IMG/VR virus record: IMGVR_UViG_3300017917_004266
Coordinates: 1 to 64,000 of that record
Length of the DNA: 64,000 bases
Strand: one strand, 5' to 3'
DNA from: a virus
The position numbers and the translations under genes are program-made. Numbering within the stretch: position 1 is the first letter of the stretch; every line of letters begins with the position of its first letter. Of this stretch, positions 6,193 through 64,000 are shown in pieces. Under the pieces are notes generated by a model that worked only from the letters and a program-made list of their open reading frames with translations, was not told where the DNA came from and did not search any database.

Positions 6193-6738
6193 ATGGCACA
6201 CAATCTAAGACCATTACAACAATATAACGAGCATGATGTTATCAATTTCTTTGCTTATAGCGGAGATAGTACTCTTGTTCGTAAAGGCGCTGCGGTTAAA
6301 ATCCAAGGTGCTGGCTTCAAAGCCGATTCTACAAATCCAGTAGAAATGCTAGGTGCTCCAGGCGCCTCTTATACCAATACAGTATCACAACGTTATGGCA
6401 CAGTACCAAAAGTAGCTGCCGCCGTATCTGGAGATAAAGTACTTGGTCTAACTCTACTAGATATTCGTGAGACTGATGAAAATGGTGAAAAACTAATTTA
6501 CAATCCACGTAAAGCTGCTGAAATGAATGTCGTTATCAGCGGTCAAACCGTACCAGTTCTAACTCGTGGCGTAGTTCTTTATAGTGGACTAGCTGCTGGT
6601 TCAGCTGGAGACAACGTTTATCTACATGCTACCACAGCTGGTGATTTGTCAACAACAAACACTGGTGGTACAAAAGTAGGAAAACTTCTTGGTGATCGCG
6701 ACGCTAATGGCGTTGCTCTCCTCAAGATCGAACTATAA
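6193..6738 (+). CDS. Putative capsid decoration protein
   Basis: 181 residues, Gly/Ala/Val-rich, beta-rich, no signal peptide. It has a strong Shine-Dalgarno (AAGGAG at 6180-6185) and codon use like the neighbouring major capsid gene, both signs of high expression. The slot between scaffold and major capsid gene is where capsid cement/decoration proteins are commonly encoded; features such as KGAAVK and LTRGVVLYSG recall small beta-barrel head-decoration proteins. Assignment rests on position and composition. Confidence 0.6.
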   Translation: MAHNLRPLQQYNEHDVINFFAYSGDSTLVRKGAAVKIQGAGFKADSTNPVEMLGAPGASYTNTVSQRYGTVPKVAAAVSGDKVLGLTLLDIRETDENGEKLIYNPRKAAEMNVVISGQTVPVLTRGVVLYSGLAAGSAGDNVYLHATTAGDLSTTNTGGTKVGKLLGDRDANGVALLKIEL

Positions 6739-7953: not shown

Positions 7954-8310
7954 ATGCCACGTAAATCAAATAAAGAAGCAAAAGGTAATAAATTAGATAA
8001 TTTAAGTCAAACTCATGGTAAAGTAGAAAATCCAGTTACATTAGAACAAGTATGGGGCGATGATGGATTGACAAAATATGGCACACTTGATACTGAAAAA
8101 TATCTTGAATATGTAAATAGTTTAAATAAAAGTGATTTGCAAAAACACGCTGTTAAAATTGGCCTTGTTCCAATTGATGATAGAACAAATTTAATTGCTA
8201 GATTAAAAAAAGAATTTATTAAACATACAGCTAAATATTCAACAAAAACTCTTGCTCCAAAAAAAGATATTTCTAAAAAAGCAAAAGATATTTTAGCAGA
8301 AGGTCGCTAA
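7954..8310 (+). CDS. Hypothetical protein with SAP-like helical segment
   Basis: 118 residues, basic. Residues 48-90 (YVNSLNKSDLQKHAVKIGL, then ...DRTNLIARLKKEFIKH) resemble a SAP/LEM-like two-helix nucleic-acid-binding fold, a pattern I recognise only loosely. It has its own promoter and good Shine-Dalgarno directly after the capsid gene, so a head-completion or DNA-associated virion role is possible. No firm family. Confidence 0.5.
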   Translation: MPRKSNKEAKGNKLDNLSQTHGKVENPVTLEQVWGDDGLTKYGTLDTEKYLEYVNSLNKSDLQKHAVKIGLVPIDDRTNLIARLKKEFIKHTAKYSTKTLAPKKDISKKAKDILAEGR

Positions 8311-8695: not shown

Positions 8696-8699
8696 ATTT

Positions 8700-11387
8700 A
8701 TGGCAGATTTTAATGTAGATGTTAATTTGCCTAGTACGATTAGCGTGGATGTAACATCACCAACTCAAGCTTTAGCTACTAATATTTCAATTCCTGGACC
8801 TCAAGGACCAAGAGGAGAAAAAGGTAATCCAACAAGCATTAATAATTTAATAGCAGAAAATATAATAATAACTGGCACAGATGGTAATATAATAACAACT
8901 AGTGGGGTTAATACAATTTTTATTTCTGGCAATAGTGGATATTTTCAGTCAGCAGTAAATACATTAACAACTAATTTAAATAGTACTGGTTCATCTTTAA
9001 ATAATTCAATAAATAATTTAAGTGGATTGTTTACTGTATATACTGGAAATTTAGATAATACTTATGCTACAGATGCTCAATTAAATTCAACTGGTTCAAA
9101 TTTAAATAATAAAATAACTTCATTGAGTGGAACATTAACCTCTACATATGCAACAATATCAAATCTAGCCGCGACAGGCTCCACTTTAACTTCTAATATA
9201 AATTCTCTTAACTCTGCTTTTACTGGATTTACTGGAAATCTTGATGCAACATATGCAACAGACACTCAACTTGCTAATACTGGTTCAATATTAAATACAA
9301 AAATAGATAATTTAAGTGGTTATGTAAATTCTCAAAATTTGTCAATTTCTAATAACTTAGTTTCTACTGGATCAACTCTTCAAAGTAATATAAATACAGT
9401 TTCATCTAATTTAATTCTTACAGGAAATTCTTTAAATTCAAATATATCTTCATTGAGTGGTACTTTGGTAAATAATTATTATCTTAAATCAAATCCTAGT
9501 GGTTTTATAACGGGAATTAATCTTTCTAATTATGTAACAAAAACAGATGGTCAATTTAACAATCGTCCAATAGTTAATGGTACTGGCATTTTGCTAAGTG
9601 GAGAAGCTTATTCTTTAAATAATCCATCTGGATTCATAACTGGAGTAGACCTTACATCTTATGTTACGATAAGTGAAACTGGTAATTTTTATTCAAATTC
9701 TAATCCAAGTGGATTTATTACATCTTCAAATGTAGCTTTAACTTATGCTACGATTAACAATCTTAGTTCTACTGGTAATACTTTACAAACTCAAATTAAT
9801 AATCTTGGAAATACATACGCAACAACAACAAATCTCATATCAACTGGATCAACTTTAAATAGTAGTATCAATTCTTTAAGTGGCGTATTAACATCTAACT
9901 ACGCAACTATTAATAACTTAACGAATACTGGTAGCACATTACAAAATAATATAAATTCACTTAGTGGCAGTTCAGTTTTACTTTATGGAGATCAAAGTAT
10001 TGGTGGAACGAAAACTTTTAGAGATAAAGTTTATATTAATAGTCTTTATGTTACTGGCACAGAAACAATTTTAAATACAACAAACAATAATATAGCAAGT
10101 CCATATTTACTTTTAAATCTAACTGGTGGATTAACTGACGGAGGAATTTTCTTTGTTACTGGAAGTGGATTAACTGGGATAAATGATACTGGAGTTATAT
10201 TTGGTTTTGATAATGTAACAAAAACTTGGCATTTTGGTCAAGGTACAAGATTAACAGACATTTCTACTCTTGATGAAGTAATGGGTTATCACGATCTTAC
10301 TGGTTATAGTGGTTATGCTAATAATATTTTTAGTACAATAACAAATTTAGCAAATACAGGATCTACATTACAAACTAATATAAATACAATTTCATCAAAT
10401 TTAATAAATACTGGAAGCGTATTAGATGGAAAAATAAGTTCACTTAGCGGTACTTTAACTTCTACATATGCCACAATAAATAATCTTGCTTCGACTGGAT
10501 TGACTTTACAAACAAATATAAATAACCTCAGTGGTTATATAAATTCTTCAAGTAGTAATATAGTATTTACTACTGGAAATCAAAATATATCTGGAACTAA
10601 AACTTTTATTAATAATCTAGAAATTCAAGGCACAGGAATCTTTAATGCAATAGACCTTAGCAATATTAGTGACTTTCAATTCTCAGGAACAAATATAAAT
10701 TTAATAGATAGTAATATTTATGTATCTGGTAATGGAACTATTTACATTTCTGGAAATCCTGTATTAACAGGAGTTAATTTATCTAATTACGCAACCATTA
10801 CTAATCTTGCTTCGACTGGAAGTACGTTAGAAGACAAGATAGGTTCGCTAAGTGGTGCGCTAACGAATAATTATGTCACAAAATCTAATGGACAATTTAA
10901 TAATCGTCCAACAGTAAATGGTACGGGAGTATTACTTAGTGGTGAAGCTGCTGGAGGTTCTGTAACTTTACCAAGCGGAATACTTTATACTTCTGGAACA
11001 CAAACTATTAGTGGATCTAAAACTTTTACAAGCACGGGCATATTTAATTCTGGAATTGATTTAAATAATTCTAATTTAATTAATGTTACTCCAGAAATAA
11101 TTAATGTTTCATCTAATTTTAATATTTCTGGAAATTATAGTAGTAGAATGATTATGGCGAATTCAGCAGCCGAAATTACAGGAACAATAGTTAGCGGAAA
11201 TCCTTTAGGGTTTAATACAACAATTATACAAATTGGTTCAGGGCAAATTTTAATTACTGGATTAGGAAATGGAATAATTATAAATGAATACGCAAGTCAA
11301 TATAGAACAGCAGGAAGATTTGCTGCAATATCTATTCTTCATACTGGAAACAATGGTTATATAATGTACGGAAATACAGGGCCATGA
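8700..11387 (+). CDS. Long tail fibre with collagen-like segment and trimeric repeats
   Basis: 895 residues. A short collagen-like stretch GPQGPRGEKG lies at about 33-42. From ~95 to ~830 there are many copies of a repeat approximating STGSTLQTNINNLSG separated by TYATINNLA, a heptad-like pattern typical of trimeric coiled coil alternating with beta segments. Modules ISGTKTF and ISGSKTF match the fibre at the window start, and NNRPxVNGTGxLLSGEA occurs twice. A trimeric receptor-recognition fibre is inferred. The stop overlaps the next ATG by 4 bases. Confidence 0.75.
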   Translation: MADFNVDVNLPSTISVDVTSPTQALATNISIPGPQGPRGEKGNPTSINNLIAENIIITGTDGNIITTSGVNTIFISGNSGYFQSAVNTLTTNLNSTGSSLNNSINNLSGLFTVYTGNLDNTYATDAQLNSTGSNLNNKITSLSGTLTSTYATISNLAATGSTLTSNINSLNSAFTGFTGNLDATYATDTQLANTGSILNTKIDNLSGYVNSQNLSISNNLVSTGSTLQSNINTVSSNLILTGNSLNSNISSLSGTLVNNYYLKSNPSGFITGINLSNYVTKTDGQFNNRPIVNGTGILLSGEAYSLNNPSGFITGVDLTSYVTISETGNFYSNSNPSGFITSSNVALTYATINNLSSTGNTLQTQINNLGNTYATTTNLISTGSTLNSSINSLSGVLTSNYATINNLTNTGSTLQNNINSLSGSSVLLYGDQSIGGTKTFRDKVYINSLYVTGTETILNTTNNNIASPYLLLNLTGGLTDGGIFFVTGSGLTGINDTGVIFGFDNVTKTWHFGQGTRLTDISTLDEVMGYHDLTGYSGYANNIFSTITNLANTGSTLQTNINTISSNLINTGSVLDGKISSLSGTLTSTYATINNLASTGLTLQTNINNLSGYINSSSSNIVFTTGNQNISGTKTFINNLEIQGTGIFNAIDLSNISDFQFSGTNINLIDSNIYVSGNGTIYISGNPVLTGVNLSNYATITNLASTGSTLEDKIGSLSGALTNNYVTKSNGQFNNRPTVNGTGVLLSGEAAGGSVTLPSGILYTSGTQTISGSKTFTSTGIFNSGIDLNNSNLINVTPEIINVSSNFNISGNYSSRMIMANSAAEITGTIVSGNPLGFNTTIIQIGSGQILITGLGNGIIINEYASQYRTAGRFAAISILHTGNNGYIMYGNTGP

Positions 11388-12337
11388 TAGCATCTCAAGC
11401 AGGTATTATTAGTTCTCGAAGAAAAAAAATAAATCCAACGGAATTTAATAATTTTAGATATACTAAAGTAGAATATAATAATCCAGTATATTTTACGCAA
11501 AGTCCACCTGGAGCCAAATATAATTTTACTGCAAGACATATTTATAATTATAATAAAAATACCAATTCTTTTACTTTTTTGGGAGTACAAAAAGCTCAAA
11601 GTTTAAAAAGAATCAAAAGTTATATATCTGAATTTAATTTTTACGGATCAACTCCTAGTAGTTTAGATGGAGTTTATACAAGAGATAATATAAATAGCGC
11701 ATATTTCTGGAAAGATGGAATTCCAAACTCAACACAATTTATTCAAAATAATGGAGGTACAGATTGGGATTTTATAGATAACAATAATATTTTTGCACAA
11801 TTTCATGCAGGTACAAACCAAGCTTTTGGTATAGATAATATCGCAGAAGGATATGAATTAAATTATCCTAATATAGGTTATGCTGAAGGTGTAGTATTAG
11901 ATAATTCAACTCTTAATAGCATTAATCAAAATAGATTATATAATAATACTAATCCAGATATTGACAGAGAACAATTTGTTCCAGATGTTAATTTTAATAT
12001 CAATACATGTAATATTTTTGATAAAAAAAATCTTGCTAATAATCAAAAAGTTTTTATTGATGTAAGATGGATAATGTTTGCAGATGGAAAAAGAGTAAAT
12101 GAAATTTATGAATATTATGATCCAGATGAAGAACAATGGATTAGAGTTATTTGGTGGTTAGATAGTACTGGAGGAGGTCTTATGATGAATGATAAAAAAG
12201 GTCATATTTACCGCGCAGGAGTTATTATAAAAGATAATATTATAGATAATATGATTTATTTTAATGATCTTGCTGCAAATAATAGCATAATTCGATCAAT
12301 GCAACAAAAACATAGTTTTGTTCAAGTTGGAATTTAA
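11384..12337 (+). CDS. Adhesin/fibre-associated protein, unrecognised
   Basis: 317 residues, Asn/Tyr/Ile-rich, beta-rich, one Cys, translationally coupled (ATGA) to the fibre upstream. It carries an acidic region near YEYYDPDEEQWIRVIWWLD (about 245-263). It may be the distal tip or a chaperone for the fibre; no family recognised. Its TAA is embedded in a strong Shine-Dalgarno (AAGGAGG) that has no start codon after it, because a group I intron follows. Confidence 0.5.
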   Translation: MIASQAGIISSRRKKINPTEFNNFRYTKVEYNNPVYFTQSPPGAKYNFTARHIYNYNKNTNSFTFLGVQKAQSLKRIKSYISEFNFYGSTPSSLDGVYTRDNINSAYFWKDGIPNSTQFIQNNGGTDWDFIDNNNIFAQFHAGTNQAFGIDNIAEGYELNYPNIGYAEGVVLDNSTLNSINQNRLYNNTNPDIDREQFVPDVNFNINTCNIFDKKNLANNQKVFIDVRWIMFADGKRVNEIYEYYDPDEEQWIRVIWWLDSTGGGLMMNDKKGHIYRAGVIIKDNIIDNMIYFNDLAANNSIIRSMQQKHSFVQVGI

Positions 12338-12343
12338 GGAGGT
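12336..12343 (+). promoter_or_regulatory. Orphan Shine-Dalgarno upstream of group I intron
   Basis: AAGGAGGT, a perfect Shine-Dalgarno, overlaps the stop codon of the preceding gene. No ATG, GTG or TTG follows at usable spacing; the next gene starts 309 bases later, beyond the intron. Splicing could bring it to a downstream start. Confidence 0.6.
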
Positions 12344-12365
12344 ATTTTATAAGTTAAAAATAAAA

Positions 12366-12600
12366 ATTTGCCTGTGTTTGGGTGAACTCGGTGAAGTCTT
12401 AACAGATAATGCTGATGATAATACCGAGCCAAGTTAAGGGCCATCCCTTAAAAGGTGTAGAGACTACTGGAGAGAAAATGGATTCTCTTAATAACCAGCA
12501 AGAGCGCCCAATAGCTAAATGCTAAAGATATAGTCCAACCCTTTAAGAAATTAATGGAAAAGTTGGCTGCCTGTGCGGCATCGGTAAAACAACTTAAATA
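12366..12600 (+). ncRNA. Group I intron / ribozyme without an ORF
   Basis: The core pairings can be drawn: P3 TTGGGT (12378-12383) with GCCCAA (12506-12511); P4 CTCGGT (12387-12392) with ACCGAG (12423-12428); P6a TTAAGGG (12434-12440) with CCCTTAA (12445-12451); P7 GACTA (12462-12466) with TAGTC (12531-12535); an extra CTGG...CCAG stem (12467-12498) as in IA introns; P8 TAGC/GCTA (12512-12524). A P9-like element AAGTTG/CAACTT (12560-12595) encloses GCTGC/GCGGC. GGTGTAGAGACTA and AAGATATAGTCC are diagnostic. It carries no endonuclease ORF and lies between genes. Exact splice sites are not resolved. Confidence 0.88.
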
Positions 12601-12651
12601 TTTATATTGATATAGTGTATAAACTATATTATATAGTGTAATAATTATTAT
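12601..12651 (+). promoter_or_regulatory. AT-rich leader with repeated TATAGTGTA box (copy 5)
   Basis: TAGTGTAT at 12613-12620 and exact TAGTGTAATA at 12634-12643 form a direct repeat; ATAGT/ACTAT could make a small hairpin. The second box is 8 bases ahead of the ATG at 12652, with no Shine-Dalgarno. TAATAA at 12639-12644 lies 7 bases before the ATG. Confidence 0.5.
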
Positions 12652-13293
12652 ATGACAATAAAAATAGTAGATATAGCAGATGAATTATATCGCGAATTAG
12701 GAGAACCAAGCGATATTAGTATACCTAGTATAGCTTTTTGGCTAAGAACTAATTTAGGTAAATTAAATATTCATCTTAATAAAAAATACTCTATAAATAC
12801 TCTAGATTTAGAAATAGATGCTATTAGTCCAGATTCATTTACCATAGCAGAAAAAACAATTTTTAAAAAACTTTATAACATACATTATTATGATAGACAA
12901 ATTATTAAATTAATAGGAAAATCTAATGCTTTAAATTTAATCAATCAAGATACTTCTACTAGTGGAGAAAATATTACAACTGGATCAGCTAATTCTGATA
13001 CTATTGAAATTTCAGAAAATGGATTTTCATATAGAAAAACAAATAGCGAAAGTACAAGTCAAATTTATAAAAGAGCAACAGATGCGATTAAAGCTAATAC
13101 TCAATTTGTAAGACAATTAGGTTTAAATTTTGTTGAATTAAAAAAAGCAGAGGTAGAAGAATTGAATCATTTAACTAATGATTACAACTTAAATGAAGTG
13201 CATCCAGTCCAAATTGTTGGAGATGATGTCTATGAAGAAGGAAATAGACCTTATAATTACAATTCTTATATTAGAAACTTAGAGAATTTATAA
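12652..13293 (+). CDS. Putative head-tail connector/adaptor protein
   Basis: 213 residues. The N-terminus is helical (DIADELYRELGEPSD, then IPSIAFWLRTNLGKLN), a pattern seen in phage adaptor proteins that sit below the portal, followed by a Ser/Thr-rich low-complexity stretch (~95-125) and further helix. It is first in a run of four compact genes leading to the tail tube, which supports a connector role. No Shine-Dalgarno; see the intron and box upstream. Confidence 0.45.
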   Translation: MTIKIVDIADELYRELGEPSDISIPSIAFWLRTNLGKLNIHLNKKYSINTLDLEIDAISPDSFTIAEKTIFKKLYNIHYYDRQIIKLIGKSNALNLINQDTSTSGENITTGSANSDTIEISENGFSYRKTNSESTSQIYKRATDAIKANTQFVRQLGLNFVELKKAEVEELNHLTNDYNLNEVHPVQIVGDDVYEEGNRPYNYNSYIRNLENL

Positions 13294-51322: not shown

Positions 51323-52639
51323 ATGAGCAATTTAGTTTCAGCAAATTGGAATTTAACTTATGGAATGGATAATCCAAAGAATGTTTTAAATAAAACAAGT
51401 CATTTTGGAGTAATGCCAATAAATCAACATTATTTATTTTTTAAAAATGGCGCGACTTCTGTAATGCAAAATGATACAAATATTTCTCCAGAATTAAAAC
51501 AGGCTTTAGAAAGAGAAAATATAGCAAGAGCTAAAAGATATTATGGAAATGGGACAGAAAGACCAGCAGGGTTTACAGAGCAAGCTATGGCTGATTTATA
51601 TTATAATAGTTATGGTTTAAATTTTAGAGTTGGAAGTCAAGGAATGCCAATTGATCCATTAACGGTATCTTTACTTACTGGAGGTCAAACAAGTTTACTT
51701 GGTCTTCTTGCCTCTCAAACTATAGCTGCCCAATTGCAGATTGCAGCTATAGAATTATTTTATTCTTCAACAATATTTCAAATGCCAAAAATTGGATATA
51801 CAGATTATTATACCTATAAAAGTAGCGCAAATCAAAAAAATGTAATTTTATCTTCTATAGTGAATAGAAAATATCCAAATTTTAATAAAAATATAAATAA
51901 ATTAGAAAAAGATCAATTAGTTAATCTTTCAAGTCAAGAAGGCTTTAAAAAAATAACTGGAGGATCTAGTTATGATACAATTTTAAGTAAATATCAATTT
52001 AACGGAGGTTGTGGATTTCTAACAAGTATATTTAGAGATATAAACAGTACAAATTTACAAAAATTTATAGAAAATATAAAAAGTAATTCAGAAATAAAAT
52101 ATAGTCAATTAAATAAATTAAAAAGTAAATTTCAAGGAAATTCTATAGCGTTATCACAAGCCACAGAAAATTCAATTTTAAATGAGATGAAAGGAAAAAT
52201 AAATGGAATGAGAAATATTTCTATATATATAGATTTTTCTGATTATACAACTGTTAAAATTAGTTCTAGTGCAAAAAGTTATGCTAATTCTCAAAAAGAA
52301 AAATCAATTTTTGGCCCATATATTTGCAGATCAAAAAAAGCTTTTTTATATTATCCAAAAATAATTATAATTCATCCAAAATATAGTACTTTAGCTCGTT
52401 ATTCAAATAATATTGAATGGAGTGGAGGAATTAATATATTTGGAAGTTATCCAACAATTTATCCAACAGGTTCTTTAAGTGATCTTGGATCATTTGAATT
52501 ATTAGCTAGAATAGCCTCGTTTGGAATACCACCAACAATAGATGGAGTATGTACTTATATTACAAAAGATGAAGCTTTTAGTTTAGGGGCCGCATATTCA
52601 GAAAATATACAAAGTTATAATTCTAAACCTATTTGCTAA
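51323..52639 (+). CDS. Last gene of the structural operon, unrecognised
   Basis: 438 residues. The N-terminal half contains a hydrophobic helical stretch LLTGGQTSLLGLLASQTIAA (about 112-131) that could be membrane-active or buried; the rest is Lys/Ser/Asn-rich mixed alpha/beta. The 3' end overlaps the convergent gene at 52629 by 11 bases, so the two operons meet without a spacer. Could be a tail-tip or ejected protein; not assignable. Confidence 0.5.
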   Translation: MSNLVSANWNLTYGMDNPKNVLNKTSHFGVMPINQHYLFFKNGATSVMQNDTNISPELKQALERENIARAKRYYGNGTERPAGFTEQAMADLYYNSYGLNFRVGSQGMPIDPLTVSLLTGGQTSLLGLLASQTIAAQLQIAAIELFYSSTIFQMPKIGYTDYYTYKSSANQKNVILSSIVNRKYPNFNKNINKLEKDQLVNLSSQEGFKKITGGSSYDTILSKYQFNGGCGFLTSIFRDINSTNLQKFIENIKSNSEIKYSQLNKLKSKFQGNSIALSQATENSILNEMKGKINGMRNISIYIDFSDYTTVKISSSAKSYANSQKEKSIFGPYICRSKKAFLYYPKIIIIHPKYSTLARYSNNIEWSGGINIFGSYPTIYPTGSLSDLGSFELLARIASFGIPPTIDGVCTYITKDEAFSLGAAYSENIQSYNSKPIC

Positions 52640-53408
52640 TCTTTTTTAGCCTATCAATAAGTTCAAAAATCTTTGCTTTAGGTATGTCATTAATATGATT
52701 TAAATTTTCTGCATTATCAAATTTTTCTTTTATTAATTTATTTTTTAGAATATCAAAAGATATATTTTTGTCCTTCATAACCTTTTCTAAAAGAATGTGT
52801 GGAGATGTTGGATTATCTTGATTTTGAATACCTTCATCTAAAAGCTTCGCATCTCCTAATTCTTCTTGAGATACAATATTAATTTTTAAAAAATTACGAA
52901 CACATCTTACAAATGCTCTATTTTCAGCAATCGCAGCTAAAAAAAATCTAGCAAAAGATTTTGTATTATTAATTGTTGCGTCTGCAAGAGCTTCAAATTC
53001 AACTACTCTACCATTTGTCTCATAATTAGGAATCCATTTAATTTTACATGATGTAGCAAAATAGTTTTCAGAGGCAGCAACTACTTTATATTCAACGCTA
53101 GTATAGCCACGAATCTGTGCAAGCTCTTTAATACCACCAAGTAAAATTAATAAATCTTTATCTTCAAGTTTTGATACGTCTGTTTCTTGGGTTTTTTGTC
53201 TATTTGGAACAAGATATTCTGTTTTTACCATCTTGCGCCAATTAATTGTTCCATCGTCATTGAATATATATTTAACACCTTCATCTTCAATTAAGCCATA
53301 TTTATTTCTAGTTGAAACTTTTGGAGGTTTATTAAAAGGCTCAACTTCTAATACTTCTTCAAGAAATTTAATATTTGGTTGAATAACTGTAGATTCTGTA
53401 TTTTCCAT
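52629..53408 (-). CDS. Putative recombination/ssDNA-annealing protein
   Basis: 259 residues. The segment VEFEALADATINNTKSFAR followed by AAIAENRAFVRCVRNFL and IVSQEELG (about 136-182) recalls the conserved ADA...AENRA..R.(V/L)R pattern of Rad52-like/phage annealing proteins, which pair complementary ssDNA during recombination and replication. The C-terminus is helical. It has its own TTGACT-17-TATACT promoter with the -10 only 7 bases from the ATG. Alternative: another ssDNA-binding recombination mediator. Confidence 0.5.
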   Translation of the reverse strand: MENTESTVIQPNIKFLEEVLEVEPFNKPPKVSTRNKYGLIEDEGVKYIFNDDGTINWRKMVKTEYLVPNRQKTQETDVSKLEDKDLLILLGGIKELAQIRGYTSVEYKVVAASENYFATSCKIKWIPNYETNGRVVEFEALADATINNTKSFARFFLAAIAENRAFVRCVRNFLKINIVSQEELGDAKLLDEGIQNQDNPTSPHILLEKVMKDKNISFDILKNKLIKEKFDNAENLNHINDIPKAKIFELIDRLKKISK

Positions 53409-53415
53409 ATTATAT

Positions 53416-53444
53416 AGTATAATATACTTTATTTATTAAGTCAA
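53416..53444 (-). promoter_or_regulatory. Sigma70 promoter, leaderless start for 53408 gene
   Basis: On the - strand TTGACT (53444-53439), exactly 17-nt spacer, TATACT (53421-53416), then 7 bases to the ATG. Transcription should initiate at the A of the ATG. The -35 lies in the last codons of the upstream gene. Confidence 0.7.
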
Positions 53445-54614
53445 GTCTATACTAAAAATATAAAACTTTTCTGGATTTTCATTAATAATATTTATATTAT
53501 ATAATTCTTGTATATTTTCATTAATAGAATTTATTGGTTTATTATCAAAAAAAGCCTTTTCGCTTAAATAAACGCTTCCATTACTTAAAATATAGTTATT
53601 TGATTTATAAAATAATTTATTAACATTTTTATTTATTAAATCCTCTATTTTTTTATGTTTTAAGCTAATATTTGATATTATTCCATAATCCATAAAATCA
53701 ATTTTATATTTATTTAAATTTTCTTTAGGTAAGTATGAGTACATTTGATATTTTATATTTTCATTTTTTAATTGTTTAATAAAATCTAAAATTGAATTAT
53801 CTTCAATAAAAACATTTATCCCTATAATATGAGGTTTATGTTCTCTTAATATATTAATATCAATAGCCTGATTGGTAGCAATAATACAAGGCATAATTTT
53901 TAATTGATTTCTTAGATTATTTTCATTGAATAATAAGTCCATTCTATATATACAATGATTAATTCTCTGGCTTCTTTGAACTACATGATTTGGAACAATA
54001 TGAAATAATTTATTATTAAATAACTTTCCAAGATATATAGTATTAATAAGATTTATATTATTTTTTATATTTAAAAGTTTTAAAATACTTTGTGATATTT
54101 TTTCTGGTTTTATACTATTAATACTTTTTGGATCTTCTTGGGCAGAATAACTTGGTTTAGTGTCTCGTTCTGGTTCAAGCAAAATCATATCTTTCTCTTC
54201 TGTCCAATATGGTTTAACATTTTCTATATTATTATTACTATATAATGCTACTATTTTTTTATTAAATCCAGATGCTATATGTGCGCCAAAACTATCTGCG
54301 CCAACATGCAAAATAGAATTTTTAATAATATAAGCAGCTTGACGAATATTAGTTTGCCCAACTAAATTATAAGTATTTTCTAAAATTTTTTCTTTTTCTC
54401 CACCAATTTGAACTATTTGAATATCATTTTCTTTTAAATGTGGTAAAATTAGATTGATAACTTCTTGCCAATAATCATAATCTTTAGCTGGATATTTACT
54501 GAATGGTTGAAAAGATATATATCTTTCAAAAGGTAATGGAAAGAACGATTCTAAAATAAATGGTTTATTTATTTTAAGACCGCAGGAAGTTGCGTATGAT
54601 TCTACTAGGTGCAT
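53436..54614 (-). CDS. GT9-type (heptosyltransferase-like) C-terminal half plus extra domain
   Basis: 392 residues. Residues ~60-145 (IQIVQIGGEKEKIL; LVGQTNIRQAAYIIKNS; HVGADSFGAHIASGFNKKIVALY) form the nucleotide-sugar-binding half of GT9 enzymes, with the usual Asp/His signature (GADSFGAHIA). The start, MHLVESYATSCGL, reads like the middle of an intact GT9, whose N-terminal half is at the end of the 55252-57168 product. After ~190, a further ~200-residue domain of unknown function follows. Probably works with that half as one transferase. Confidence 0.65.
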   Translation of the reverse strand: MHLVESYATSCGLKINKPFILESFFPLPFERYISFQPFSKYPAKDYDYWQEVINLILPHLKENDIQIVQIGGEKEKILENTYNLVGQTNIRQAAYIIKNSILHVGADSFGAHIASGFNKKIVALYSNNNIENVKPYWTEEKDMILLEPERDTKPSYSAQEDPKSINSIKPEKISQSILKLLNIKNNINLINTIYLGKLFNNKLFHIVPNHVVQRSQRINHCIYRMDLLFNENNLRNQLKIMPCIIATNQAIDINILREHKPHIIGINVFIEDNSILDFIKQLKNENIKYQMYSYLPKENLNKYKIDFMDYGIISNISLKHKKIEDLINKNVNKLFYKSNNYILSNGSVYLSEKAFFDNKPINSINENIQELYNINIINENPEKFYIFSIDLT

Positions 54615-54617
54615 ATA

Positions 54618-55259
54618 TTAATGAAAATTTTCTCCATATTTAGGTAAAAATGCATGTTTTATTTCTATATTTGGTTCTACTATTATTCTATGTCCAAATG
54701 CACGAACTTTCTCAAAAAAAGCTACATGATCCAATCTTTTATCATTAATATCATATTTTATTTTTTTATATAAATGAGCTGGAATAATAAAACAAGTTCC
54801 TACTGAATTAACTTCTGTTCTAATATCTCCATTAGATTTATTATATGGTGGTTTAAAATCAAATTTTATTCCTTGAGAATCAATAAAACCATCAATATCA
54901 TAGAATCTTTTCCAAGGCCACCAATCATTATTTTCTATATAAACATATGGCGCAACTACTTCTGTAGTAGAAATTGATAATAATTTTTCTATAATATCAA
55001 AAGGATATTCTACTATATCTACATCCATCCAAAAAACATGAGTATATTCATCCGTTAAATTATCTTCTATAATTTTATTTCTTAATTTTACTAATTTTGC
55101 ATATCTGTGTTCATTGCCTTCAATATATCCATCATATATAGCTCTCTTTTTATTTTTAAATGTTAAGTTATTAAATATATTATCTGCATTTTGTTTCCAA
55201 AAAAACCAAGCTCCTTTTGGAGATATTAATTGTGGTATAAGAACTTTAGCTTCATTCAT
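54618..55259 (-). CDS. GT-A glycosyltransferase, Anp1/GT62-like
   Basis: 213 residues. EHRYAKLVKLRNKIIEDNL (about 50-68) then HVFWMDVDIVEYPFDIIEKL (about 74-93) gives a DxD motif in the arrangement RN...WxDxDI..P, followed by VVAPYVYIEN and HAFFEKVRAFGH-like acceptor segments. Metal-dependent sugar transfer is the expected activity. The gene lies between the two halves of a GT9 enzyme; it overlaps the upstream gene by 8 bases. Confidence 0.65.
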   Translation of the reverse strand: MNEAKVLIPQLISPKGAWFFWKQNADNIFNNLTFKNKKRAIYDGYIEGNEHRYAKLVKLRNKIIEDNLTDEYTHVFWMDVDIVEYPFDIIEKLLSISTTEVVAPYVYIENNDWWPWKRFYDIDGFIDSQGIKFDFKPPYNKSNGDIRTEVNSVGTCFIIPAHLYKKIKYDINDKRLDHVAFFEKVRAFGHRIIVEPNIEIKHAFLPKYGENFH

Positions 55260-57168
55260 CTTTTAAATCAAAAGCTATTTTATCTTTACCATTATGTTGA
55301 TAATTAAATAGTCTCTGAGTTCCTATGTGTGGAAGAAAAGCTATTTCAAAATAACCATTGTGACTTCCTGCCCCTTCTAACCATAAAAGTTGGTCCATCT
55401 GCGGTACATATTGTATTACTTTATCTACATATGGATTTCCATCTAATATAGAAAAGTATTGAGGATTCGTTGCAACAAAAAGTTTTTTATTTGGATATTG
55501 TTTTTTAATTGATGAAAATAAACTCGTAGACATATATATGTCACCTATAGACTCTGGCATTACATATAAAATTCTATCCTTTGGATCGCCTTGCCCTATC
55601 ACTTCTTCAAATGTAACTTGTTTATTTTTTTGATTTTCTTGTGCAGCAATTTGTCTGAAATATTTTTCAATATCTTGACGTTTAATACCCTTTGAAATTT
55701 CATTCATCCAATATTTGTGTCCATCATCATTATCATCTACATGATGCATTTTTAATAAATTATGATACATATAAGTTAACCATTCGGAATCATCTTTTAT
55801 TTCTGGTATTTTATGGAATGGATCTCTATCTTCTTCTTTTGTAGAAAAATCATAAGATGTGAATGGTGCAGAATCAATAAATTCTTCTATATATTTACCT
55901 ATAACTTCTACAGAAAAATTATTTATTGTCCATTCTCTGGCTATTTTACCAATCTCTTTTCTTTTTTGAGGAGACATATTATAAATTTTATTTAATTGTT
56001 TTGCTATTGAATTTGGTTTTGTAGAAGCTTTAATAAATTCTGTTCCATGCTCTCTATACTCTGACCATTCTAATGGAAACGAACCAGAGCCTTCTTCACA
56101 CATTTCTTCTCCACAACTATAATTTGTTACTAAAGTAATTAGTTCAGTAAGTTTAGCTTCTTGGATTGGTATTTCTTGTCCACCGCTTGTAAAAGGATGA
56201 CAATAAACATCCATTAAATTATAAACTTCATTTAGTTGTTCTTCTGTTACTCCTAATGAAACATTAGTTGTTATTTGTGATTTTTGTGTGTTACAAAATT
56301 TGCAGTCTACATCTTGACCATGGAATGGTTTAATTTCATAATTACCACAATTTTTACATATATATGTAGTTAAAATTTCTTTAAAATCAATATTATATTC
56401 TTTTGCTAAACGATGAATATTCCATCCTTCTGACCAGTGCGTATGAAGTAAAAGATATGTATTTTTAATTTGAGGATTACTTCTTTTCCATAAAGCATAT
56501 CCTTCTAAAAGATTAGGTACACTTTTTCTTAATTGATTTCTAAACACAAATCCAATTATAAAAGCATCAAGAGGTATATTATATTTCTTTCTAAGATTTT
56601 GTCTTTGTTCATTTTCTAATCTATAAAAACTTTTAGTTTCTATTGGTCCATGCACTGTTTTTACGTGATTATGTCCAATATCATTCAAAGCCTTTGTCGC
56701 GAAATTACTCCATATCCAATAATTTTTAATCTTAGAAGCTTTTTCAACTGCAGTTGGAAGGATTGGCAAAGAGTCTAATGTTGTCCAAAGAACCGAAGTT
56801 ATTTTATTGAACCATTTTTTATCAATAGCAAAATCTATCCCCCAAATATCTTGTACTGCAATATAGACATCTGGTTTTTCTTCTTGTATTATTTTATCCA
56901 AATAGTGTGCTCCATAACTGGCTAGTCTAGCGACATTTGGATCTTTATTTAATTCTTGAAATTCTTGTTGATTATTTGGTAATGATCCTACACTTTTCCA
57001 TGGTGTACGTTCAAATTCTGGATGAGCATATGTTAATCCACAAGAATAATGAGTTATATCATATTTGCCAGTTTTATATAAATAGCTTAATAAGGCTTTT
57101 GCTGCCCTACCAAACCCAGTTTTAGCTAAACTAAAGTCAGATTGATATACTAACTTCTTTCTTCTCAT
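55252..57168 (-). CDS. GT4 glycosyltransferase with zinc ribbon, DUF4214-like segment and GT9 N-half
   Basis: 638 residues. Residues ~1-430 are a GT-B/GT4 enzyme (TGFGRAAKALLSYLYKTGKY at the N-terminus; GFVFRNQLRKSVPNLLEGY; EIPIQEAKLTE E-x4-E-like donor site near 332). A CxxC...CxxC zinc ribbon (Cys271, 274, 289, 292) is inserted in the C-terminal domain. Residues ~462-511 resemble DUF4214 (LTYMYHNLLK; KYWMNEISKGIKRQDI). Residues ~531-625 are the N-terminal Rossmann half of a GT9 transferase (YVMPESIGDIYMSTSLFSSI). The start is 5 bases after the preceding stop. Confidence 0.7.
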   Translation of the reverse strand: MRRKKLVYQSDFSLAKTGFGRAAKALLSYLYKTGKYDITHYSCGLTYAHPEFERTPWKSVGSLPNNQQEFQELNKDPNVARLASYGAHYLDKIIQEEKPDVYIAVQDIWGIDFAIDKKWFNKITSVLWTTLDSLPILPTAVEKASKIKNYWIWSNFATKALNDIGHNHVKTVHGPIETKSFYRLENEQRQNLRKKYNIPLDAFIIGFVFRNQLRKSVPNLLEGYALWKRSNPQIKNTYLLLHTHWSEGWNIHRLAKEYNIDFKEILTTYICKNCGNYEIKPFHGQDVDCKFCNTQKSQITTNVSLGVTEEQLNEVYNLMDVYCHPFTSGGQEIPIQEAKLTELITLVTNYSCGEEMCEEGSGSFPLEWSEYREHGTEFIKASTKPNSIAKQLNKIYNMSPQKRKEIGKIAREWTINNFSVEVIGKYIEEFIDSAPFTSYDFSTKEEDRDPFHKIPEIKDDSEWLTYMYHNLLKMHHVDDNDDGHKYWMNEISKGIKRQDIEKYFRQIAAQENQKNKQVTFEEVIGQGDPKDRILYVMPESIGDIYMSTSLFSSIKKQYPNKKLFVATNPQYFSILDGNPYVDKVIQYVPQMDQLLWLEGAGSHNGYFEIAFLPHIGTQRLFNYQHNGKDKIAFDLKDE

Positions 57169-57172
57169 TAAG

Positions 57173-57718
57173 CTACCAAAGTTCGCTATCTTCTTGATTT
57201 TCTGATGCTACTTTTTCTACATTTTCCTTTTTAGCATTTTTTAGTTTCTTAATCATTTCTACCCTAAGTGAATCAAATACTGAGTCTAGAGCATAAGATA
57301 AAAATTGTTTTAAAAGCCTAGCTTCATTAAAATAAAATCCAATTACATAAGATTGTTTATTTTCACTATTTTGTTTGTCTGTTTTAGATACCATATATGA
57401 AAAACCAACATGTTTTTCGTCTTTAATATATGGGCTGAATTTAATTTGTGTAGTCTGCTTTTCTGAAGTATGGTATGCAGAGAATTCTGTTCCTCTTTCA
57501 ATAGCGTCCAAAATGCCAGCGGCTTCTGTTAACGAAAATTTAATTTTTACGCTTTTTGCTGGATTATTTTGATTTTCTGCAAAAGAGCCTATCCTTTTTA
57601 CATCATTCCATGATGCCTGTTTAATTAGTGAACTCCAAATAGAAGAGTCTTTTTCATTTACGCTAAAGCTACAAGCTGTACCTGTATTTTTACTGTTTGG
57701 TTTATAAAATGATATCAT
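57173..57718 (-). CDS. Putative ssDNA-binding protein (Whirly/PC4-like)
   Basis: 181 residues. The central strands and helix (KIKFSLTEAAGILDAIERG; TQIKFSPYIKDEKHVGFSYMV; GFYFNEARLLKQFLSYAL) follow the Whirly/PC4-like pattern, and the protein ends in an acidic tail with a terminal aromatic, ENQEDSELW, like the regulatory tails of phage SSBs. It heads an operon with a consensus promoter and leaderless start, next to the polymerase gene. SSB function is inferred; no other SSB candidate is in the window. Confidence 0.5.
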   Translation of the reverse strand: MISFYKPNSKNTGTACSFSVNEKDSSIWSSLIKQASWNDVKRIGSFAENQNNPAKSVKIKFSLTEAAGILDAIERGTEFSAYHTSEKQTTQIKFSPYIKDEKHVGFSYMVSKTDKQNSENKQSYVIGFYFNEARLLKQFLSYALDSVFDSLRVEMIKKLKNAKKENVEKVASENQEDSELW

Positions 57719-57724
57719 ATTAAG

Positions 57725-57753
57725 ATAATATCTTATGTTTATTTAAATGTCAA
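57725..57753 (-). promoter_or_regulatory. Sigma70 promoter, leaderless start for 57718 gene
   Basis: On the - strand TTGACA (57753-57748), 17-nt spacer, TATTAT (57730-57725), then 6 bases to the ATG. The -35 is overlapped by the stop codon of the polymerase gene. Confidence 0.75.
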
Positions 57754-60314
57754 GTTTTTATATTTTTGACTTCACTTAATTTCATATAAATATCATGATC
57801 TTGTATTGCTGCTATATCTGCAAATACACAATCATCTCTTTTTATAGCTTTAAATATAACAATATTTCCTTCTTCAAAGTTTTTATTTTTATTTAATATT
57901 TTATTATTATCAATTTTATCATTAAACATTAATACTGTTAATGTTCCAGTTTCATCTGATACTTTTAATCTTACATATTTTGTTTTCTTTTCATTTTTAG
58001 CTGTTCCAGAATATGCTTCATCTACTTGGGCTACAAAAGAAATTTTTGTATTAATAGGAATATCATTAATATCGTTAATTGATATTAAATTATCTTTTTT
58101 ATCTATAAATATATCTTTTAAAGTCTTTTCGTATGTATAGCCTAGAAGTTTCTTTTCGTAATACCAATTAGCAAAACTTTCACTTTTGCTATTTTGGTTA
58201 TATATTTTTAAATAAGGTTCATATTTCGTTTTGATTGTTTCTAATCTAGAATCTTTAATAATAATTTTATTCTTTTCATCTGTAAATTTATTAAGATGCT
58301 TAATGATTCTAATTAAATCTTCATCAAATTTTGAAGCGAAAGAAATAACGTACTTCTTTTCTTTTGTGGTTAAAATATTCCATAATTGAGCTTCTAGAAC
58401 TATTTTGCTTCTACTTTGTTTAAAGCCACTTAAAGCCCCAGCTTGTATAAGCGAGCATAAAATGCCAATATTAAGATCTGCTTCTTCTGCGGCTTGAAAT
58501 ATTTCAAATTTATTAGAATATTTATTTCTAAAACTATTTAATTTTTCAATTGATTTATCACTAATTCCTTTTACAGAAAGTAATCCAAATCTAATATTAT
58601 CTTCTTCAATAGAAAAATCCATTTCAGATTTAATTATATGAGGTTTTAATAATTGAATATTAAAATATGCCATTTCTTTTTGAATTTTAGAAATTTCACC
58701 AATTGGATCTGGTTCGTGTCGAGTCATTTTTAATAATGATAAAAAGAATTGTTTTGGATGATTAAATTTAAGATAAATTGTACATGCTGCCAATGCAGCA
58801 TAAGCTAGAGAATGAGATTTATTAAATGAATAATTTGCTGAATCTTCTAAAATTTTCCATAAAATTTCTCCAACTTCTTTTGGTAATTTATTTTGTTTAC
58901 ATTTATTTTCAATTTTCTTTTTCCAATCTTTAATTTCATCTACTTTCTTTTTACCAACAATTCTTCTTAAAATTTCTGCTTCATCTAATGTAAAACCAAT
59001 TTTATGCGCCATTCTCATTAATTGTTCTTGATAAAGAGCTACTCCACCAGTTTGTTTTAAAATATCATCAAAAAATGGATGTATGCCTTCATATTCTTGA
59101 AAATTTGTATATTTAGCGTATTTATCAACAAATTGTAAAGCCCCAGGTCTAGCTAAAGCTAATACTCCACTAAGTTCTTCTAGATTTTTTGGTTTTACTT
59201 TTTGACAAACTTTAAAATTTGTATCTGCTTCAATTTGAAAAAGTCCATGCGGAGACTTTAAATCTTGTAGATTCCTATATATAGACTCATGATTTAAATC
59301 AATATCTGTAATTTTAATTCCAATATTTTTACAAACATCATCTACTACAGATACGCTTCTTAATCCAAGAATATCTAATTTAATATTAAATAAAGAAACC
59401 CAACTCATATCAAAACTTGAAACGGCTTCTTTATCACTAGATAATTCTGTTGGGCATGCTTCATTAAGATTATCATGAGATAAAAGAACTCCAGATGGAT
59501 GTACTCCTTTATTTTTAATTAAATTTCTTAATTTTAAGGCTATTTGATATATTTCTTTATTTTCTTCACACCATTCTTTAAATTTACTTACTTCTTCATA
59601 TGCAGTAGAAATATCTTTTACTTGACCAAAAATTTTAGGAATTAAAGATGATATTTCTGTCATTTCTTGATCTGTTTTTTCTCCAATTATCTTTCCACAT
59701 TCTTTAATAAGAAGTTTACCACTAAGAGTATTAAGAGTTAATATTTTACTAGTCTTACCTAAAAATTTATTTTCTAAATAATTTAATACTTTACCACGAT
59801 TATAATAACAAATATCAAGATCAACGTCGCACATTAAACTGCCATCTAAATATGTTATTCCATCAACAACTTGCTTTTTAGCTCGAATCTTGGATATAAA
59901 TCTTTCAAAATAAAGATCATATTTAACAGGATCTATTCTTGTTACTCCAATAAGATATAATATTAGTGAACCTGCGGCAGAACCTCTTCCTAAACCTACT
60001 GGAATATTATTTTCATTACAATAATTGATAACATCCCAAACTAATAAAATATAATCAATAAATCCCAATTCTTTTAAAGTTTCAAGTTCATATTTAGCTC
60101 TTTCAATATATTTTTTATATTCAGTAGAATCTTTATTAATATTTAAATCTTTAAAACCTTTTAATGCTAAAGCTCTTAAAAAATCATAATTTAGTGAGTC
60201 TTCGCTAATTCCTACTTGATGTTTGTACTTATTATCTATTTTAAATTCTGGTAATCTAACGCCATGAAGTGGTAAATCTAAATTTTTAAATTGTAATTCA
60301 AAGTCTTTAATCAT
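57750..60314 (-). CDS. DNA polymerase III alpha subunit, PHP-less
   Basis: 854 residues, family C polymerase. The N-terminal palm/thumb contains VGLGRGSAAGSL (106-117) and CDVDLDI (162-168), whose Asp163 and Asp165 are the catalytic metal ligands. Further family motifs are HPSGVLLSH, HGLFQIEAD, LARPGALQFV, GVALYQEQLMRMA and NKSHSLAYA. A C-terminal OB fold (about 730-840) follows. It lacks the ~270-residue N-terminal PHP domain of bacterial DnaE; that domain is encoded separately at 61639-62388. A 3'-5' exonuclease gene lies in the same operon, so proofreading is supplied in trans. Confidence 0.92.
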   Translation of the reverse strand: MIKDFELQFKNLDLPLHGVRLPEFKIDNKYKHQVGISEDSLNYDFLRALALKGFKDLNINKDSTEYKKYIERAKYELETLKELGFIDYILLVWDVINYCNENNIPVGLGRGSAAGSLILYLIGVTRIDPVKYDLYFERFISKIRAKKQVVDGITYLDGSLMCDVDLDICYYNRGKVLNYLENKFLGKTSKILTLNTLSGKLLIKECGKIIGEKTDQEMTEISSLIPKIFGQVKDISTAYEEVSKFKEWCEENKEIYQIALKLRNLIKNKGVHPSGVLLSHDNLNEACPTELSSDKEAVSSFDMSWVSLFNIKLDILGLRSVSVVDDVCKNIGIKITDIDLNHESIYRNLQDLKSPHGLFQIEADTNFKVCQKVKPKNLEELSGVLALARPGALQFVDKYAKYTNFQEYEGIHPFFDDILKQTGGVALYQEQLMRMAHKIGFTLDEAEILRRIVGKKKVDEIKDWKKKIENKCKQNKLPKEVGEILWKILEDSANYSFNKSHSLAYAALAACTIYLKFNHPKQFFLSLLKMTRHEPDPIGEISKIQKEMAYFNIQLLKPHIIKSEMDFSIEEDNIRFGLLSVKGISDKSIEKLNSFRNKYSNKFEIFQAAEEADLNIGILCSLIQAGALSGFKQSRSKIVLEAQLWNILTTKEKKYVISFASKFDEDLIRIIKHLNKFTDEKNKIIIKDSRLETIKTKYEPYLKIYNQNSKSESFANWYYEKKLLGYTYEKTLKDIFIDKKDNLISINDINDIPINTKISFVAQVDEAYSGTAKNEKKTKYVRLKVSDETGTLTVLMFNDKIDNNKILNKNKNFEEGNIVIFKAIKRDDCVFADIAAIQDHDIYMKLSEVKNIKT

Positions 60315-60522
60315 TTCCTAATTCCTCATCCAATTTATCTATTTTTTCACTAAATTGATTTAATCCACTAATTAATATTTTCATAGAATTTTTATCTTTT
60401 AAAGAATAAAATACATCTGCTTTACCTGTTTTTTTACCTTTTTGAACAGTTATTAAAAGATATTCAATATTTGAATCATCTAATTTTTGTAACATATCAT
60501 ATATATCATCTAAAGATGCCAT
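60307..60522 (-). CDS. Small acidic replication-operon protein
   Basis: 71 residues; beta-strand YLLITVQKGKK flanked by helices, with an acidic C-terminus (IDKLDEELGND). Shine-Dalgarno GGAGAT precedes the ATG. It overlaps the polymerase start by 8 bases, suggesting stoichiometric coupling to the polymerase or exonuclease. No family recognised. Confidence 0.55.
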   Translation of the reverse strand: MASLDDIYDMLQKLDDSNIEYLLITVQKGKKTGKADVFYSLKDKNSMKILISGLNQFSEKIDKLDEELGND

Positions 60523-60523
60523 A

Positions 60524-61162
60524 TTAAATCTCCACTTGCCATTTTAATTTATTCCATACTTTTAAATTTAAGTCAAGATCATTAATAGCATCATGCAATT
60601 TATCATAATCATGTTCAATACCATTTTCCTTGCCAAGGAAACTTAATGAACTTTTAACATCTTTTCTTTTAGTATGATATATTTTATATTGATATTCTAA
60701 TAAATTTTCAGTTGTTTTATATGGTGTTCCATATTTAATTCCTCTAGCTATACAATTTGTATCAATAATCTTATTTAAAATATGATCCCAATGGCAGCCC
60801 ATGTGTTCGTATAATTCTTTAATTAAATATATATCAAAACCTAATATATTATGACCAATAATATAATCGGCATGATCTAACCAATCTTTTATCGTTGGAA
60901 ATGCATCTTTTATTTTAAGTCCTTCTTTTTCTACTTTTTTATGATCGTATCTAGTAATTCTTGCTGCGTCTTGGCTTATTTTTAAATCTGTATCCCAATG
61001 TATATAATAGTTTTTACTGTCAACTTTAAAATCCCCTTTAGCTTTTATCATTCCTATTTGCCAAGGAAGATTATGGCAAAAATTTAAACATAAATTAAAT
61101 GTCTCCATATCTATAAAGATATAGGTTTTATTCTTGTTGTATCTTAAAAGATGTTCGTCCAT
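60524..61162 (-). CDS. DEDDh 3'-5' exonuclease (DnaQ-like)
   Basis: 212 residues. All catalytic positions are present: Asp18 and Glu20 in IFIDMET, Asp110 in IIGHNILGFDIY, and His190/Asp195 in LHDAIND. It should remove misincorporated 3' nucleotides, two metals at the active site. Encoded one base downstream of its neighbour and in the same operon as the PHP and polymerase genes, so it is the probable proofreading subunit. Confidence 0.88.
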   Translation of the reverse strand: MDEHLLRYNKNKTYIFIDMETFNLCLNFCHNLPWQIGMIKAKGDFKVDSKNYYIHWDTDLKISQDAARITRYDHKKVEKEGLKIKDAFPTIKDWLDHADYIIGHNILGFDIYLIKELYEHMGCHWDHILNKIIDTNCIARGIKYGTPYKTTENLLEYQYKIYHTKRKDVKSSLSFLGKENGIEHDYDKLHDAINDLDLNLKVWNKLKWQVEI

Positions 61163-61163
61163 A

Positions 61164-61637
61164 TTAATCTAAAAATGGGTCTTTAATTGGTTTTATAAAA
61201 TTATTTAATCCTCTTATTTTATAATGCCAATTTAAATATTCTACTGGAGATAAATGATACCATCCACTAGGATTCGTAAGATTATACATTGAAAATTCAG
61301 AAAGATCTTGAAGAAATGCAACAATATGTGCTTCGACTTGTAATCTGTTAGCTACTTTCCTGATTCTTCTTGCTTGAGTATCTCTAATTTCAAACCTATG
61401 AATAATTGCATCAAAATAAGATGTTGGTGGCCTATACTGTCTATCAATCCTTGTTAATTCTAATACGGCAACAGGATCTTCTTCTCCATTTTTGTATCCC
61501 CATTCAATTTGATCAATATCTGATGCGTACAATTTAGGTTGATCATAAATCCATTTTTTATAATCTCTTAGTCTATCTTCTCGATCTGTTCTTTGAATAG
61601 CTTTTGTACCATTTATTGTTAATTTTTTAATAAGCAT
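61164..61637 (-). CDS. Possible degenerate PD-(D/E)XK nuclease-like protein
   Basis: 157 residues. SDIDQIEWGYKNGEEDPVAV followed by LELTRID (about 39-65) aligns by eye with the D-x-D...(E)-x-K core of small phage PD-(D/E)XK nucleases, but the Lys position reads ELT, so activity may be lost or shifted. A helical basic middle (QARRIRKVANRLQV) could bind DNA. It has the clearest Shine-Dalgarno of the operon (AGGAGG). It lies between the PHP and exonuclease genes. Confidence 0.4.
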   Translation of the reverse strand: MLIKKLTINGTKAIQRTDREDRLRDYKKWIYDQPKLYASDIDQIEWGYKNGEEDPVAVLELTRIDRQYRPPTSYFDAIIHRFEIRDTQARRIRKVANRLQVEAHIVAFLQDLSEFSMYNLTNPSGWYHLSPVEYLNWHYKIRGLNNFIKPIKDPFLD

Positions 61638-61638
61638 A

Positions 61639-62388
61639 TCATCCTCCTAGTGCTTCAAAACAAAATTGATTGCTCGTCATATGATTTAATTCTGGTTTAT
61701 TTAATGTTGTTCTATTATTTATGCATCTGAATGTCAAATAAGATTTAAAATCTTTTTTTGATTTATAATAAATACTTTTTGTATTAATTATTTTTAAATT
61801 ATTCGCTTCAGTATAATTTTTTATTTTATTTTTAATTATAAAGTCAAATGGTAAATGATTATGTTCTATGAACATTATTGGTTTTGTAAAATCAAAATTA
61901 GGTACACATATAAAATTTTTTAAAGTATTATTGAATATAAAAGAATCATAAAATGGAATAGCTAGAATTAGATCTTCTTCAGACCATAAACTATTAAGAT
62001 TTTTATAATCTATTCTTGGTTCGTAATAAAATCCCTTTTTTGCTGCTAATGAAAATATATTTATAAGTTTTTTATAACCATTATTTGTTTTAAAAAATAT
62101 AATAATTTTTGATGTTTTTATTCTGGATTCTTCAGTTTTATCTTCAATATTATCATTAATTGATAATCTTAATCCGTATCGTAAATTTATATTATGATTT
62201 TTACAATTTGTATATGCCTGTAAAAATGACGACATATTATCTTCTACTAAATACAGATTTTTAATATTATTTTTAATTGCAATATCAATAATTGAATCTG
62301 GATCATCTTCTTTGACTTCTTCATCTTCTAAAGTCAAAATTGATCTACCTATGCTAAAATGAGATTTAAATAAAGGTATAGTTTCCAT
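61639..62388 (-). CDS. Stand-alone PHP domain of DNA polymerase III alpha
   Basis: 249 residues colinear with the N-terminal PHP domain of DnaE: PLFKSHFSIGRSILTL (5-20), IDIAIKNNIKNLYLVEDNM (34-52), the YGLRL segment (about 71-75), then FKTNNGYKKLINIFSLA and LAIPFYDSF. The metal-binding signature is degraded: one His (10) remains of the HxH pair and EDNM replaces the usual D-(H)-G-N, so phosphoesterase activity is unlikely and a structural role in the split polymerase is inferred. First gene of its operon, 10 bases after a consensus -10. Confidence 0.72.
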   Translation of the reverse strand: METIPLFKSHFSIGRSILTLEDEEVKEDDPDSIIDIAIKNNIKNLYLVEDNMSSFLQAYTNCKNHNINLRYGLRLSINDNIEDKTEESRIKTSKIIIFFKTNNGYKKLINIFSLAAKKGFYYEPRIDYKNLNSLWSEEDLILAIPFYDSFIFNNTLKNFICVPNFDFTKPIMFIEHNHLPFDFIIKNKIKNYTEANNLKIINTKSIYYKSKKDFKSYLTFRCINNRTTLNKPELNHMTSNQFCFEALGG

Positions 62389-62398
62389 TTATAAATAA

Positions 62399-62427
62399 AT
62401 ATTAGTATAAATATATAAGTATGTCAA
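62399..62427 (-). promoter_or_regulatory. Sigma70 promoter of the polymerase operon
   Basis: On the - strand a perfect TTGACA (62427-62422), 17-nt spacer, TAATAT (62404-62399); the ATG is 10 bases after the -10, leaving a leader of about 3 nt. No Shine-Dalgarno. The -35 overlaps the upstream stop codon. Confidence 0.78.
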
Positions 62428-63377: not shown

Positions 63378-64000
63378 TGTAAAATTTCTTCTGAATTCAT
63401 TTCTCCAAAATCTTTTTTGCTTGGCAAACTAATACAAAGTTGTTTTGGATCAAAATATCTTAATAGTTTATTATAAGCTTTTTTTGCTGCATTATTTCCT
63501 GCATTATTATTATTTTCATCGTTATTAAATGATATATGAATTTTATTTGGATCTATTTTTAATAAAATATTTAATATTGATATACTAATTTCTAATCCAA
63601 AAGTAACTATTGTATTTTTTATTCCATTTTGATATAAAGATAAACAATCTCCTATACTTTCAATTAAAAGAATTTCTTTGCTTTTTTTAATATCTTCAAT
63701 ATTTAAAAATGTTGGATAACACCAAGAATTCTTATCCCCAAGATGCTTCCATTTAATTTTACTTTTATTGGTGATATCTCTTCCAGAAAAACCAACTATT
63801 TCATTTCTGCTATCAAATATTGGGAAAACATATCTTTCTTTCATCTTACCAGCAGAAGCTATTCCGCCTTGAAATAGTTCGATTGTTTCCTTCTGCACTC
63901 CTCTATTTATCCAATAATCATGTGTTTTAGATAATTTAAGCAAAAGATCTTTATCAAAAATTTTTTTATTTTCTATTTTTGGTTTTTCTACTTTTGGTGT
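63359..64000 (-). CDS. DnaG-type primase, C-terminal part (truncated by window edge)
   Basis: The frame stays open to base 64000 (214 codons); a TTG at 63943 is inside the gene, not its start. YVFPIFDSRNEIVGFSGRDI matches the DnaG catalytic core. The Toprim part is EILLIESIGDCLSLYQNG (Glu, then Asp) and ISFNNDENNNNAGNNAAK, where NNDEN stands in place of the usual DGD. It would synthesise RNA primers for the polymerase encoded downstream. A CHC2 zinc finger would be expected beyond the window. Confidence 0.8.
   Translation of the reverse strand, partial: TPKVEKPKIENKKIFDKDLLLKLSKTHDYWINRGVQKETIELFQGGIASAGKMKERYVFPIFDSRNEIVGFSGRDITNKSKIKWKHLGDKNSWCYPTFLNIEDIKKSKEILLIESIGDCLSLYQNGIKNTIVTFGLEISISILNILLKIDPNKIHISFNNDENNNNAGNNAAKKAYNKLLRYFDPKQLCISLPSKKDFGEMNSEEILQWKKNL

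Follow-up and report, generated by a model that had tools for sequence, protein, structure and literature searches.

An uncultured phage carries a group IA intron without an ORF in the gap separating two of its late genes, and at this intergenic site it is most likely a mobile passenger (probability roughly 0.7). The window analysed here is a stretch of 64,000 nucleotides, positions 1 to 64,000 of the IMG/VR virus record IMGVR_UViG_3300017917_004266, which has 92,989 bases and 27.6% G+C, with a siphovirus-like tape measure gene at window position 18374. On this reading, a probably active intron moved recently into the gap; it would be transcribed together with the tail genes upstream and excise itself from read-through transcripts. 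The insertion would be near neutral, since the downstream gene at 12652 appears to rely for its expression on a late promoter of its own and a leader lacking a Shine-Dalgarno (SD) sequence, both lying past the intron core. The features concerned are the following.

11384..12337, plus strand: upstream gene, 317 aa, with its TAA stop at 12335-12337
12336..12343, plus strand: AAGGAGGT, an orphan SD-like sequence overlapping the TAA of the upstream gene
12344..12638, plus strand: likely extent of the intron, with the 3' end after G12638 or, alternatively, G12609, as judged from predicted pairings
12370..12373, plus strand: proposed internal guide sequence GCCU, from the local fold
About 12378-12557, plus strand: group IA core P3-P9 with P7.1 and P7.2, from RF00028, helix search and identity with a second phage, L006
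12378-12382/12507-12511, plus strand: P3, by string search
12387-12392/12423-12428, plus strand: P4, by string search
12434-12440/12445-12451, plus strand: P6a, by string search
12462-12466/12531-12535, plus strand: P7, by string search
12467-12470/12495-12498, plus strand: P7.1, by string search
12471-12476/12483-12488, plus strand: P7.2, by string search
12512-12515/12521-12524, plus strand: P8, by string search
12540-12546/12551-12557, plus strand: P9, by string search
12560..12595, plus strand: P9.1 extension AAGUUG/CAACUU (strands 12560-12565/12590-12595), by string search
12631..12651, plus strand: conserved SD-less leader of the 12652 gene, beginning TATATAGTGTAATA, shared with intronless relatives
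12636-12643, plus strand: promoter-like GTGTAATA, enriched before ORFs
12652..13293, plus strand: downstream late gene, 213 aa

The presence of a group I intron is confirmed. The covariance-model search suggested by the original prediction, run as an Rfam cmscan of 12000-13000, returned a single match, RF00028 Intron_gpI, at 12310-12557 (+) with 64.6 bits (gathering threshold 50) and E 6.8e-16, spanning the full model (1-253). The match was recovered again in a search of the whole record and was missed by a fast-filter scan of the whole window. The claim that a group I core with pairable P3, P4, P6a, P7 and P8 lies between genes was thereby borne out, with all five helices placed by string search, the element intergenic and no ORF of at least 50 aa, hence no homing endonuclease ORF, inside it. 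Both the conserved core P3-P8 and the guanosine site in P7 are present, as in other members of group I, and the presence of P7.1 and P7.2 assigns the intron to subgroup IA. The fold z-score of the element is -2.28, and the outer P9.1 helix is maintained in L006 with a G-C to G-U change. Inspected by eye, the changes at the P9.1 tip seemed compensatory, but the window and L006 sequences fold differently and covariation is not claimed. The ORF-less intron is probably self-splicing.

L006 (IMGVR 3300014050_000006) was the only other phage found with the same intron, and there it occupies the same site, flanked by homologues of the upstream and downstream genes of the window. Across the core (12359-12555) the two introns are identical at 195 of 197 positions (99.0%) and across the tail (12556-12629) at 83%, compared with 73.8% DNA identity in the upstream gene, 66.9% in the downstream gene and 70-73% in the next two genes. 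These identities are most simply explained by a recent transfer of the intron; the alternative is very strong constraint on each base, loops included. The distribution of the intron does not track the phages, since the downstream protein of the window is 81-82% identical to those of intronless phages and 54% identical to that of L006. Among 16 contigs holding the 12652 gene together with its leader, the window and L006 were the only carriers. An exact 25-base stretch of the intron gave no match in the genome contigs searched, and unrelated phages in INPHARED matched the intron core only. The upstream gene has its sole scan-detected relative in L006 (55% aa identity).

The proposed splice sites are less clear than the core. 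AGGT, the last four bases of AAGGAGGT, is the possible 5' exon side of P1, and the original proposal that it pairs with GCCT held in part: P1 between AGGU (12340-12343) and GCCU (12370-12373) was found in the local minimum-energy fold of the window, but this pairing is absent in L006. In that phage the GCCU guide faces AGAU, not AGGU, and in the best local fold AGG pairs with CCU while the G meant to face the splice-site U is bulged. Given the guide GCCU, the 5' splice site would fall after U12343 in AGGU, and it is a candidate position in view of the AGAU and the bulged guide G of L006. For the 3' end, two candidates fit on reading the sequence: G12638 would allow P9.0 (AC/GU) and a 3-bp P10 (AAU/AUU), and G12609 would allow P9.0 (AA/UU) and would leave the promoter block outside the intron. 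Both the two fitting 3' ends and the P1, which measures only 4 bp, is missing in L006 and is equalled in quality in 20% of shuffles, count against the passenger reading.

The weak P1, non-canonical in L006, could also be expected of a decayed, splicing-incompetent intron retained as a structured RNA that, for instance, stabilises the 3' end of the upstream message or serves as a processing site; in both phages the element immediately follows the stop codon of the upstream gene, which suits this explanation as well. Nevertheless, the Rfam model is covered in full and the catalytic core has remained nearly unchanged although the genes of the two phages are 67-74% identical, which makes decay unlikely.

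The conserved leader of the downstream gene favours the passenger reading. As originally predicted, the 12652 gene has an ATG and no SD. The same leader, TATATAGTGTAATA...TATATG or close to it, with its promoter-like motif, lies directly before the 12652 homologue, likewise without an SD, in at least 14 intronless relatives, comprising L002-L005, whose downstream proteins show the 81-82% identity given above, and L144, L146, L288, L289, L291, L295, L296, L298, L300 and L301. In nearly all of them the bases preceding the ATG are TATATAGTGTAATATCTATTATATG or very close to it, whatever gene stands upstream (L005 has the variant ATTAAAGTGTAATATC), and the window and L006 also retain the conserved leader block. 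Since the leader is conserved without an SD in these relatives, the 12652 gene can do without one supplied by splicing. Nor is such a start exceptional in this phage: an SD of at least 5 nt precedes just 10 of the 79 ORFs of at least 80 aa in the record, so that the SD-less start at 12652 is ordinary here, and many ORFs begin directly after AT-rich leaders. Among 10 copies of GTGTAATA in the record, seven precede a same-strand ATG by no more than 45 nt (p 1e-10), for example before the genes at 1107, 8351 and 48993. We infer from this placement that GTGTAATA may be a late promoter, and because it marks other phage gene starts, the 12652 gene probably has a late promoter of its own beyond the intron core.

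Several further observations concern gene starts in the window. A GTGTAA(T/A) motif at 1095, 3806, 3999, 8337, 12636, 18342, 35605, 41659 and 48964 stands 4-35 nt before the ATGs of several genes and is likely a phage late promoter common to the relatives. Around the 3' end of the intron, ATATAGTGTA occurs twice, 22 nt apart (12610-12641), possibly as a duplicated promoter motif. On the minus strand, early/middle genes at 52629-63943 follow TTGAC...TATAAT-like sequences so closely that hardly any leader is left, as seen before 53408 and 57718, a hint that their mRNAs are nearly leaderless.

The original prediction held that splicing could join the orphan SD to the next start codon and switch on the 12652 gene. 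In its fuller form, splicing would join AAGGAGGU to the 12652 leader and raise its translation late in infection. The orphan sequence itself is genuine: a perfect AAGGAGGT lies at 12336-12343, and the only other copy in the 93-kb record, at 82611, is an ordinary SD with its ATG 10 nt away. In L006, too, an SD-like AAAGGAG stands immediately before the intron, which could hint at an SD function, although with n=2 sequences only. In addition, the c-di-GMP-controlled group I intron of C. difficile, which brings a ribosome binding site beside a start codon, provides a precedent (PMC3984707). Set against these points are the predicted junctions, which would give a GGAGG-to-ATG distance of 14 nt (G12638) or 43 nt (G12609) instead of the anticipated 5-12 nt, the AGGU missing from L006 and with it a canonical P1, the SD-less leader shared by at least 14 intronless relatives, and the scarcity of SDs among the ORFs of this genome. 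A splicing-assembled SD at 12652 is thus improbable, and the proposed switch was not upheld.

A comparable layout, in which an SD adjoins the 5' splice site and an ATG lies close to the 3' end, occurs in L032, a T4-like contig that carries a group I intron at 6340-6640 (minus) before a gene resembling T4-like cyanophage structural genes. Its SD CAGAGAGGAGGGU ends at a P1 of 5-6 bp with GCCCU; the SD (AGAGGAGGG) thus lies at the 5' splice site and the ATG stands a few bases from the likely 3' splice site. If spliced after AAUAG, the predicted product would read AGGAGG-GUGGUGA-AUG with a 7-nt spacing, and by sequence L032 is a better candidate for a split SD and start than the window. Among the 119 stretches listed by a pattern scan for SD, guide and core, only L032 passed the core check. 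More broadly, ORF-less introns of uncultured phages might settle in the ribosome-binding leaders of late genes because the guide resembles an anti-Shine-Dalgarno, and splicing might in some of them assemble an SD and a start; we regard this generalization as a long shot. Such coupling of structural-gene translation to splicing would be clearest in L032 and possibly operates here.

It is very improbable that the element is the remnant of an IStron (a group I intron joined to an IS element) with a GG-ending target like GGAGG: group B IStrons do insert after GG-ending sites and the Turicibacter IA2 intron lies at GGAGG (PMC4227781), but the window element has no transposase ORF (with no ORF of at least 50 aa, IS605/IS607 ORFs are absent), its 3' end is GTG or TTG rather than TCAG or the CGG of group B despite the preceding GGAGG, and most of the related phage introns found here do not follow GG. 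Because IStrons and the Turicibacter intron use such sites, a GGAGG beside a group I intron need not signal translation control.

For a mobile passenger, the route of movement could be recombination, homing driven in trans by an endonuclease, or reverse splicing into an SD-like GGAGG that matches the guide sequence. A search of the record for GIY-YIG or HNH gave no match, a further point against the passenger reading.

Regarding the flanking genes, the description of the 12652 gene as a connector found no support. PHROG and Pfam searches and a comparison with PDB sequences gave no match for its protein, and a low-confidence structure model (mean pLDDT 63.5) had no PDB match with E <0.7. Neither this protein nor the 360-aa gene at 6762 had relatives among INPHARED phage records. 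Between the conserved 8351 gene and the 12652 gene (8696-12337), gene content varies among the relatives; the stretch is probably a variable, adsorption-related cassette terminating at the conserved promoter block.

Related introns, diverged from that of the window, lie elsewhere in late-gene gaps. L109 and L151 have ORF-less group I introns before the homologue of window gene 7954-8310, where the window itself is intronless, and L149, L155 and L156 have them in late-gene leaders, several with a GTGTAA-like motif close upstream. The 3' end of the record (92849-92989, outside the window, the end of L131) falls inside a second, diverged intron related to those of L089/L156; since the contig terminates within another group I intron, at least two are present in the phage. 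A related core also occurs near the end of a gene in the cultured Flavobacterium phage immuto. An intron inside coding sequence is one possible reading of L154, where exon 1 could supply a start codon, but an ATG farther downstream suits the homologues as well. In the crAss-like phage cr6_1 (L009, 1415-3115), a RAGATH-9, a RAGATH-7-assoc and a group I intron occur within 1.7 kb.

This uncultured phage lineage thus holds ORF-less introns in several late-gene gaps or leaders, in contrast to the preference of phage group I introns for essential coding genes (PMC4227781), and a literature search of incomplete coverage returned no account of intergenic introns across late leaders within a single phage lineage. 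Together with the near-identity of one intron between two phages that have otherwise diverged, this distribution speaks for a safe-site way of life and provides a natural setting in which to ask whether introns can assume control of translation.

Among known systems, group B IStrons and the Turicibacter IA2 intron (PMC4227781) share with the window intron the insertion immediately after GGAGG and differ in their IS component and 3' end. The C. difficile c-di-GMP riboswitch-ribozyme likewise places a group I intron close to an SD within an untranslated region; here, as the original prediction had noted, there is no obvious aptamer (cmscan of 12000-13000 to E 1 gave RF00028 only), the SD would end up 14 or 43 nt from the ATG, and the downstream leader is conserved without an SD. 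ORF-less phage introns can be mobilised by free-standing endonucleases in collaborative homing (PMC3984707), and the window intron resembles them in having no internal ORF and in being near-identical in two distant phages, but its insertion site is not conserved coding sequence and no GIY-YIG/HNH gene was found in the record. Compared with the td-like phage group IA introns (RF00028), the window intron is intergenic and ORF-less, with a short P1 and no obvious P2, but the two share P3-P9, P7.1/P7.2, a possible U-G P1 with GCCU and a place in the phage late region.
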